From Pseudanabaena sp. PCC 6802 (GTDB lineage: Bacteria; Cyanobacteriota; Cyanobacteriia; Pseudanabaenales; Pseudanabaenaceae): DNA of 64,000 nt. The notes below the pieces were generated by a model. That model worked only from the letters and a program-made list of their open reading frames with translations, was not told the origin of the DNA and did no database searches. The stretch lies in the NCBI RefSeq assembly GCF_000332175.1, contig NZ_KB235914.1:3096868-3160867 (forward strand), read 5' to 3'. A program made the position numbers and the translations under genes. Of this stretch, positions 13,379 to 16,657 are shown one piece after another. How positions within the stretch are numbered: the first letter of the stretch is position 1; each line of letters begins with the position of its first letter.

Positions 13379-14209
13379 ATGCCAAAAATCGCTTATTGGG
13401 ATTGTTCCGTAGGGATTGCCGGAGATATGTGTTTGGGGGCGCTTGTCAGTGCAGGTGTGCCTTTAGATTATTTCAGCCAAATTTTGCAGCAGTTGGGTTT
13501 AGATCGCGAAGTCACGCTTCATGCAGAATTAGTACATCGCTGCGGTCAAGCGGCAACGAAGGTTCATGTTAATTCGATCGGGTTACAGGAGGATGCTTCT
13601 AGCGATCGCCCAGAAGCTCGTAAAGAAGCACATCAATATACCGAACATCATCACCATCGTCACCTCAGCGAGATCGAGCAAATTATCCGTACTGCTAATT
13701 TGCCACCACAGGTGGAGCGATGGAGTTTGAACGCATTTCGTCAATTAGCGATCGCTGAGGGCAAAGTCCACGGCATTCCGCCCGAACAGGTGCATTTTCA
13801 CGAAGTGGGTGCGCTTGATGCCATTACAGACATTGTTTGTACTTGCGCCGGGCTAGACTGGCTAGGCGTGGAAAAGGTATTCTGCTCGGCTTTGCCAACT
13901 GGGGGAGGTTTCGTCAACTGCGAGCATGGTAGGTTACCCGTACCCGCACCCGCAACTTTGCAATTATGGCAAATGTACCAGGTCCCGATATTCAGCAATG
14001 GTATTGAGGAGGAATTAGTAACGCCTACTGGTGCTGCCCTAGCTGTTAGCTTGAGCGATCGATTTGGCGCACCACCAGATATGAAATTGCAAACGGTGGG
14101 TTTAGGGGCGGGCGATCGCGAACTCCCCATCCCCAATATCGTGCGTTTGTGGATCGGTAAACCAATCAAGGGCAAAGTTAGCAAACAAGCATCTAAAAAA
14201 AAATACTAA
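13379..14209 (+). CDS. larC: LarC nickel-pincer cofactor cyclometallase, N-terminal part (LarC1)
   Basis: The N-terminal 276 residues of LarC (DUF111), which inserts nickel into the pyridinium-bisthiocarboxylate nucleotide to complete the NPN cofactor of lactate racemase and relatives. Family sequence is clear: [20 protein letters not shown] at the start, a histidine-rich [14 protein letters not shown] stretch near residue 92, [16 protein letters not shown] near 140, and the [18 protein letters not shown] region near the end. The frame closes at TACTAA directly after a run of nine A residues (14195-14203). The rest of LarC continues in the -1 frame. In Lactiplantibacillus plantarum larC is likewise made by a programmed frameshift. 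Confidence 0.9.
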
Positions 14210-14781
14210 ACGCGCCTGATATTAACTCTAATTACGCGAGTAATCTGAGCGCGCAGGTAACTAACTCGCTGCTTGCGGAGACTAATGAGACGAGCGCGAT
14301 CGCCAAAGTAGAGATGGTGGCGGTTTTGGAAACTCAAGTTGACGATCTAAGCCCTCAAGCGATCGCTTATACGATGGAGGAGTTACTAGGCGCTGGGGCA
14401 TTAGATGTATTTGTGCAACCAGTGGGCATGAAAAAATTGCGATCCGGCACCCTAATTACGGTTATTTGTCAGCGCGATCGCGCGATCGCCTGCCAAGACA
14501 TCCTGTTTCGCGAAACCAGCACTTTAGGAATTCGGATTCGCTTGCAGGAAAGAGCAATCTTGCCTCGTGCCGTCCGCGAGGTCGAAACCACCTATGGTAA
14601 GGCACGAGTCAAGATCGCCCAACGCGGCGATCGCACGTACACAGTGCAACCCGAATACGATGACTGTGCTCGCCTGGCACGCCAGCATCAAGTACCGCTC
14701 TGGCAGATACAAGCCTGCGTTAGAGAAGCAGGAGAACGAGCGATCGACAATAATTTTTTTATTGACAGTAATTCTTATTAG
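14197..14781 (+). CDS. larC: LarC C-terminal part (LarC2), in the -1 frame relative to LarC1
   Basis: The -1 frame is open from the A9 run at 14195-14203 through 14781 without a stop. It reads about 38 linker residues rich in Asn/Ser/Ala, then [20 protein letters not shown], the start of the LarC C-terminal domain. That domain holds residues for nucleotide and CTP binding in characterised LarC (for example the [15 protein letters not shown] region). A separate start at the ATG 14314 is possible, but no convincing ribosome-binding site precedes it. Ribosomal or transcriptional slippage at A9 would give a fused protein of about 467 residues. No larA, larB or larE is in the window. Confidence 0.85.
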
Positions 14782-15601: not shown

Positions 15602-16288
15602 TTAACTAGCGATCGCCAGTTCTATAGCATCTATGAGGTGCGGTTCGATCGCATCGGGGTTTTGCAAGCGTAGTTGAGTCTCGTTCCGAATACCGCTGAG
15701 AATCCCGATAGTGCTTACGCCATGCTGTTTGCCAGCCTCAATGTCAGCTTCGGTATCGCCAACTATCCACTGACGATCTGCTTTTGGTAGCGTAGCGATC
15801 GCCCGCTTCATTAACTTGGGCTTGTCCTTGGTATCGCCCGTCTTGACGTAGTCATTGCTCAAGTAAAAGCGCCGCTCGGAGGGGAAAAATCTAGTCAAAT
15901 TATATTGATGCAAGACCGGTAGCAGTTCGCGCTCGCGGCGCATTGTCATTACAGCAAGTTCAATGCCAGCGTCTTGTGCTTTTTCTAAAGCCGCGATCGC
16001 CCCTTCAATAATTAGATCGTGCTTGAAGTATGAATCGGTATGCACGGTGGAACGTCTTAGCTGGGCAAACTGTTCTGCTTGACCTGGTTCTACCAGGCCA
16101 GACTTCAGGGCTATGTCTTTTTCATTGACTTGAGCGCGTTTGAGTGCCCAGAATTCCCGCTTGCTGAGGGGTGTAACGGTTTGACCTGCTAATTTTGTTT
16201 GCTTGAGGCAAAATTTATAAACCTGGAAATACCGTTCTGACACGTCCATAATTGGCCCATCAAAATCGGTAAATAAGCGCTTCCTCAT
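15602..16288 (-). CDS. HAD-superfamily hydrolase
   Basis: A 228-residue phosphatase-like protein of the haloacid dehalogenase superfamily. Motif I is near the N-terminus (LFTDFDGPIMD, nucleophile Asp and acid/base Asp). Motif II threonine is in ELAVMTMRRE, a lysine lies in DTKDKPKLMKRAI, and motif IV acidic residues are in WIVGDTEADIEAGKQHG. An alpha-helical cap of C1 type lies between motifs I and II. Phosphoglycolate-phosphatase-like or nucleotidase activity is plausible, but the substrate is not predictable. It is convergent with the nblA-like gene. Confidence 0.85.
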   Translation of the reverse strand: MRKRLFTDFDGPIMDVSERYFQVYKFCLKQTKLAGQTVTPLSKREFWALKRAQVNEKDIALKSGLVEPGQAEQFAQLRRSTVHTDSYFKHDLIIEGAIAALEKAQDAGIELAVMTMRRERELLPVLHQYNLTRFFPSERRFYLSNDYVKTGDTKDKPKLMKRAIATLPKADRQWIVGDTEADIEAGKQHGVSTIGILSGIRNETQLRLQNPDAIEPHLIDAIELAIAS

Positions 16289-16657
16289 AAATTTTTTTTT
16301 AAATCTTCTGATTCCACTTTAGCTGATAGTTACAATTACTTACTTCAGATTATTAAATGGCAGGTAGAAGGTTTACTTATGGAACGTATAGATCGCAATT
16401 GATTAACCATGGCATCTAATGCTTGTTGGGTAATGTCGCCTTGTACGATCTTGATGCGATCGCCCGCTTTGCTTGTAATCATATTGCTCGAATTCTTCAA
16501 GGGGCAGGCACGGAGGTGCAGCCCCTGGCGTGTATCGGTACATTTTGCAAGAATGTTGCCTACTGACTTACTCCCCTTCTCCCAAAAGGGGAGAAGAGGT
16601 TGGGGGATGAGGGAAATTGTGCTCTGCGTAACATCAGTAATTTAGAATTAATCTGAG
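16289..16657. repeat. 369-bp gap with dispersed palindromes downstream of recA
   Basis: No convincing gene. The stretch includes CTTCTCCC (16576-16583) pairing with GGGAGAAG (16589-16596) around a short A-rich loop, within a CCCCTTCTCCC repeat type frequent in cyanobacteria. GGGGCAGGCACGGAGG and CAGCCCCTG at 16501-16528 form another short GC-rich palindrome. The hairpins lie just after the recA stop codon. Confidence 0.5.

Follow-up and report, generated by a model that had tools for sequence, protein, structure and literature searches.

The larC gene of Pseudanabaena sp. PCC 6802 is very probably one gene expressed by programmed frameshifting, of either the ribosomal or the transcriptional kind, at a run of nine A residues (A9) that joins its two parts. 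The initial annotation had proposed as much, and the run, the direction of the shift, the linker and the selection acting on the gene across the family bear it out. The gene lies on the + strand of the 64,000 nt stretch of contig NZ_KB235914.1 that was analysed here (the window). The larC1 frame (13379..14209) encodes the N-terminal part of LarC, with 276 aa if terminated at its own stop codon, and it reads TCT AAA AAA AAA TAC TAA at the junction. The A9 run (14195..14203) is thus in frame as AAA AAA AAA and contains A_AAA_AAA, a slippery sequence in the correct frame ahead of the zero-frame TAA (14207..14209) that begins four bases past the run. The larC2 frame (14197..14781, + strand) encodes the C-terminal domain and is the -1 (equivalently +2) frame relative to LarC1; its first open position is 14197, directly behind a TAA of the same frame (14194-14196), and it comprises 194 codons and ends at the TAG at 14779-14781. 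In this -1 frame a linker of 122 nt (14204..14325, + strand) leads from the run to the conserved core. The positions first given for the run and for the TACTAA that ends LarC1 are exact in the sequence, the -1 frame is indeed open from the A run to 14781, and a run of A10 or A7 would, as stated there, bring the two parts into one frame.

The two frames correspond to the two parts of LarC, the nickel insertase of nickel-pincer nucleotide synthesis. The LarC1 part matches NCBIfam nickel_LarC1 (TIGR00299, E 1.7e-65), PF01969 (E 5.8e-92, profile 1-235) and PDB 12bi (E 1.1e-60), and the LarC2 part matches NCBIfam nickel_LarC2 (NF052512, E 1.2e-43) as well as PDB 6bwo (E 7e-23) and 12bi (E 3e-24). 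Both NCBIfam models score above cut-off and the two domains stand in order at one locus, with PF01969 profile positions 1-235 followed by 235-374. Against the full-length LarC structure 12bi (414 aa), part one ends and part two starts near residue 262, so that the break falls between two domains. The genome, which encodes the cyanobacterial PsaA/PsaB and has the HIP1 octamer 95 times in the 64-kb window versus about once expected, also contains intact LarB (299.5 bits) and LarE (314.7 bits), both above cut-off; LarA was sought in the genome and is absent. The cyanobacterial LarC of Synechocystis is active, and LarA is missing from most cyanobacteria, which make the nickel-pincer cofactor without it (PMC11796402).

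The PF01969 profile was searched in 145 relatives and then across the order. Within the family (38 genomes, this one included) larC is split in 34 genomes, always at the same domain junction, continuous in 3, and without a match in 1. Outside the family nearly all of the 107 genomes of the class have larC in one frame; two frame breaks found there (L067 in G068 and L068 in G141) have no A run and are likely errors or decay. The run at the junction of the split genes is A9 in 27 genomes, A10 in 4, A6G in 2 and A8 in 1, which makes A9 or A10 in 31 of the 34. The A6G run belongs to the two genomes of genus g7, where the junction reads CCA AAA AAG stop, a dnaX-type A_AAA_AAG with six A residues. 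The same or an equivalent slippery site is present in 33 of the 34 split genomes and the shift needed is -1 in all of these, the exception being G011 with an A8 run that would need +1. Since rpoB is broken over several frames in the G011 assembly (L110), and G005 of the same genus has A9 and -1, an assembly indel is the simplest reading of this exception. The zero-frame stop lies at most 10 nt from the run in 30 of the 34 genomes, A9 occurs in three different codon phases, and the length from run to core ranges from 17 to 122 nt.

Relatives with a continuous larC, which the initial annotation had counted against its proposal, do exist in the family, but only as three genomes of one genus (g2), and the g2 linker when examined contained no A run. 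In an rpoB tree made without G011, the split genomes and g2 group together in the family and the split label needs two changes, corresponding either to one gain with a reversion in g2 or to two gains. A single origin of the split was not established by this tree, in which two changes are needed and the AU p at the base is 0.30 for one clade of split genomes.

Among the 34 split genomes, which share ancestry and hence are not independent and whose run-to-core lengths vary, stops between run and core number 62, 58 and 1 in frames 0, +1 and -1, respectively. In the window itself the linker is free of stops in the -1 frame, against 4 and 7 in the two remaining frames. The comparison of run and linker with relatives, suggested at the outset as a check, found an A run at the same place in 34 genomes and a -1 linker frame open in 33 of them, versus 7.2 expected from composition. 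Both halves of larC are under purifying selection, with dN/dS in ten close pairs lying at 0.04-0.13 in the N-terminal part and at 0.09-0.24 in the C-terminal part. In 14 of the 34 genomes the C frame contains no ATG, GTG or TTG between the run and the core. Taken together, the open -1 linker, the dN/dS values and the missing start codons argue for translation of the two frames into a single protein.

The same data bear on the idea that LarC1 and LarC2 are separately translated subunits, made by re-initiation or coupling after the LarC1 stop. The window does have an ATG at 14314, 12 nt ahead of the conserved core, and NCBIfam has distinct models for the two parts. However, the 14 genomes just mentioned would have no start codon to use and in most of the remaining genomes the candidate start is just a TTG or GTG, or pairs poorly with the anti-SD; moreover, separate translation does not require linkers kept open in the -1 frame, and the conserved slippery run would be superfluous. 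We therefore consider such subunits improbable. A sequencing or assembly error at the homopolymer, or a decaying pseudogene, is scarcely credible. While homopolymers are error-prone and the G011 assembly does contain errors of this type, the break recurs in 34 genomes that were sequenced separately, with differing run lengths and a single direction, the linkers are free of stops, dN/dS is 0.04-0.24, and this genome has an intact LarB and LarE. At the level of the family an error or a pseudogene is refuted, and so is the one-base indel that the initial annotation had kept as an alternative: a -1 shift is required even in relatives with A10 or A6G, 33 of the 34 split genomes share the direction, the -1 linker has no stops and purifying selection acts on either half.

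With both strands counted, the 5.62 Mb genome has just 22 distinct runs of at least nine A residues (25 matches with overlaps allowed), and by our own arithmetic a sense-strand run of this length would fall in the 131-nt junction by chance in about 3 of 10,000 cases. The 64-kb window contains two A9 runs, which equals the number expected from composition, so that the weight rests on the location and the conservation of the run. The second one, on the minus strand (16292-16300), lies just upstream of the start codon of a minus-strand ORF (15602-16288) that looks like a HAD-type phosphatase. We read the surroundings of this run and of 20 other runs of at least nine A residues in the genome. Besides larC, frames are joined by A runs in three identical IS3-type copies, one probable IS630-type transposase and one TPR/glycosyltransferase pair; the remaining runs are within intact frames or outside long frames. 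A9 on the coding strand is rare in this genome and often found at a frame junction. In the TPR/glycosyltransferase pair (L113, G000:C1:88300-90300; Pfam TPR and Glycos_transf_2), the TPR-repeat ORF ends at A9 and the -1 frame opens into a family-2 glycosyltransferase, possibly another A9 frameshift fusion in this genome.

As we picture it, ribosomes would translate LarC1 as far as the AAA AAA AAA stretch. Some of them would read one further codon (TAC) and stop at the TAA, giving the 276-aa LarC1, while a fraction would slip one base back at A_AAA_AAA, with both lysine tRNAs re-pairing, and would then read on across linker and C-terminal domain, ending at 14781 with the full-length nickel insertase. 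What the sequences show directly is a pair of frames, a slippery run and a slip direction that are both conserved, a -1 linker without stops, and purifying selection on either half; the slip itself, its mainly ribosomal nature and the existence of both products are our inference. The ribosomal route seems reasonably probable to us. It is favoured by the direction, fixed at -1 in 33 of the 34 genomes, by the dnaX-type A_AAA_AAG heptamer in g7 and by hairpins downstream of the run in genus g5. Constancy of direction was likewise used as a mark of ribosomal rather than transcriptional slippage by Antonov et al. 2013 (PMC3711429). Against the ribosomal route stand the junction of the window, where neither a stem nor an SD-like site was detected, and the persistence of A9 in three codon phases, which transcriptional slippage would explain at least equally well. 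Equally strong hairpins are also present in the flanks of larC in g5, and those at the junction may thus reflect a general habit.

With transcriptional slippage, RNA polymerase would add one A (or drop two) at the A9 run, so that some of the mRNA would carry A10 (or A7) and full LarC would result from ordinary translation. This is a possibility to be taken seriously, though we think it rather unlikely as the explanation. The larC run of the window is nine A residues long, A9 is the classic slippage length, and it is kept in 27 of the 34 genomes, in three different codon phases; conservation of an A9 among homologs has been put forward as an indicator of slippage by RNA polymerase (PMC1088944). 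The three identical IS3-type copies of the same genome (L115, L116 and L128, with HTH_Tnp_1 and rve domains) likewise have an A9 where their ORFs meet, with a shift of +1, the reverse of that in larC. IS1447 joins ORFs at A9 like these copies, and for this element transcriptional slippage was shown, and measured in both directions (PMC6211511). The IS3-type junctions suggest that transcriptional slippage is used in this genome. Another A9 joins the two frames of a transposase-like gene, probably of the IS630 type (L125, G000:C5:1424600-1426600), in the -1 direction. However, transcriptional slippage is at odds with a direction fixed at -1 in 33 of the 34 split genomes and with two genomes that have just six A residues before a G. 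It also fails to accommodate the g5 hairpins, which cannot act on an RNA polymerase at the run; at the moment of a polymerase slip the RNA 3′ of the run has yet to be synthesized, so that downstream stems fit ribosomes. The evidence as a whole leans towards ribosomal slippage in larC, and both processes may act.

Stimulators of -1 ribosomal frameshifting are an upstream Shine–Dalgarno sequence, a stem or pseudoknot some 5-8 nt past the slippery site, or both. At the junction of the window no significant RNA stem was detected (fold z of 0.05 with dinucleotide shuffles) and no SD-like site was found (anti-SD pairing of +0.3). The mean upstream anti-SD pairing is -4.2 kcal/mol, versus -2.9 kcal/mol at control positions; an upstream SD-like stimulator as a general feature was rejected because strong sites are fewer than at the control positions. 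In g7 an SD-like stimulator is possible.

In genus g5, hairpins are found just 3′ of the run in 14 of the 25 genomes with larC. They have stems of 12-25 bp that start 2-12 nt past the run (mostly 2-4 or 9 nt), several of them represent the strongest structure in the larC gene, and the folding z at the junction goes down to -11.7. The stems differ in sequence yet stay paired: in nine loop-aligned genomes 158 of 162 cells are paired and both sides have changed in 16 of 18 pairs, counts made with our own scripts on arms picked as complementary in neighbours that share ancestry, which are not an independent significance test. They do show that these g5 stems have stayed paired while their sequence changed. 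The flanks of larC in g5 (for example in L035, L045 and L058) contain many near-perfect hairpins of 15-25 bp that likewise differ in sequence. This seems to be a general palindrome habit of the genus, from which the junction hairpins may have been borrowed. For one hairpin type a dispersed palindrome was considered as the source and dismissed, the palindrome being present at one place per genome, larC. We tentatively suggest, as an idea more doubtful than the ribosomal route itself, that the stimulator in g5 is a long near-perfect hairpin rebuilt with different sequences by lineage, seemingly from the palindrome stock of the genome, next to a nearly fixed A run. If this is true, a changeable hairpin would determine how much LarC1 is made relative to full LarC in this genus.

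In Lactiplantibacillus plantarum, larC1 and larC2 are likewise linked by a programmed frameshift. The gene and its two parts are the same, a comparison that concerns the gene split; in contrast, LarA is absent from the present genome. The E. coli dnaX gene uses a -1 ribosomal frameshift at A_AAA_AAG with a Shine–Dalgarno sequence and a stem-loop. The CCA AAA AAG followed by a stop in g7 and the downstream stems in many g5 relatives resemble this arrangement, but in larC the slip would fuse two domains, whereas in dnaX it cuts the protein short, and larC has no SD signal above background. Transcriptional slippage at A9 operates in Thermus dnaX and in IS elements. Here the run length is equal and A9 junctions are also present in the IS elements of this genome, whereas the direction is fixed in larC and some larC relatives have just A6G.

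DUF111 is the earlier Pfam name of the PF01969 (LarC) family. In the text available from Antonov et al. 2013 (PMC3711429), a DUF111 cluster with A-rich heptamers is reported, with frameshifting of up to 39% in E. coli reporters. This cluster shares with our case the protein family, two ORFs for a fused protein and an A-rich slippery heptamer; the cyanobacterial family, the genus-specific hairpins and the genus with a continuous gene are not described in that text. The kind of event is thus already known since 2013, and what is new is its spread and anatomy in a cyanobacterial family.

Annotation pipelines are likely to call a split larC two genes or a pseudogene. The probable frameshift is an unusual decoding step in a cofactor-synthesis gene, conserved across nearly a whole cyanobacterial family, for which genus g2 with its continuous larC provides a natural comparison as to what the split is good for. 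As most cyanobacteria make the cofactor without LarA, control of the amount of LarC bears on an enzyme still to be found.
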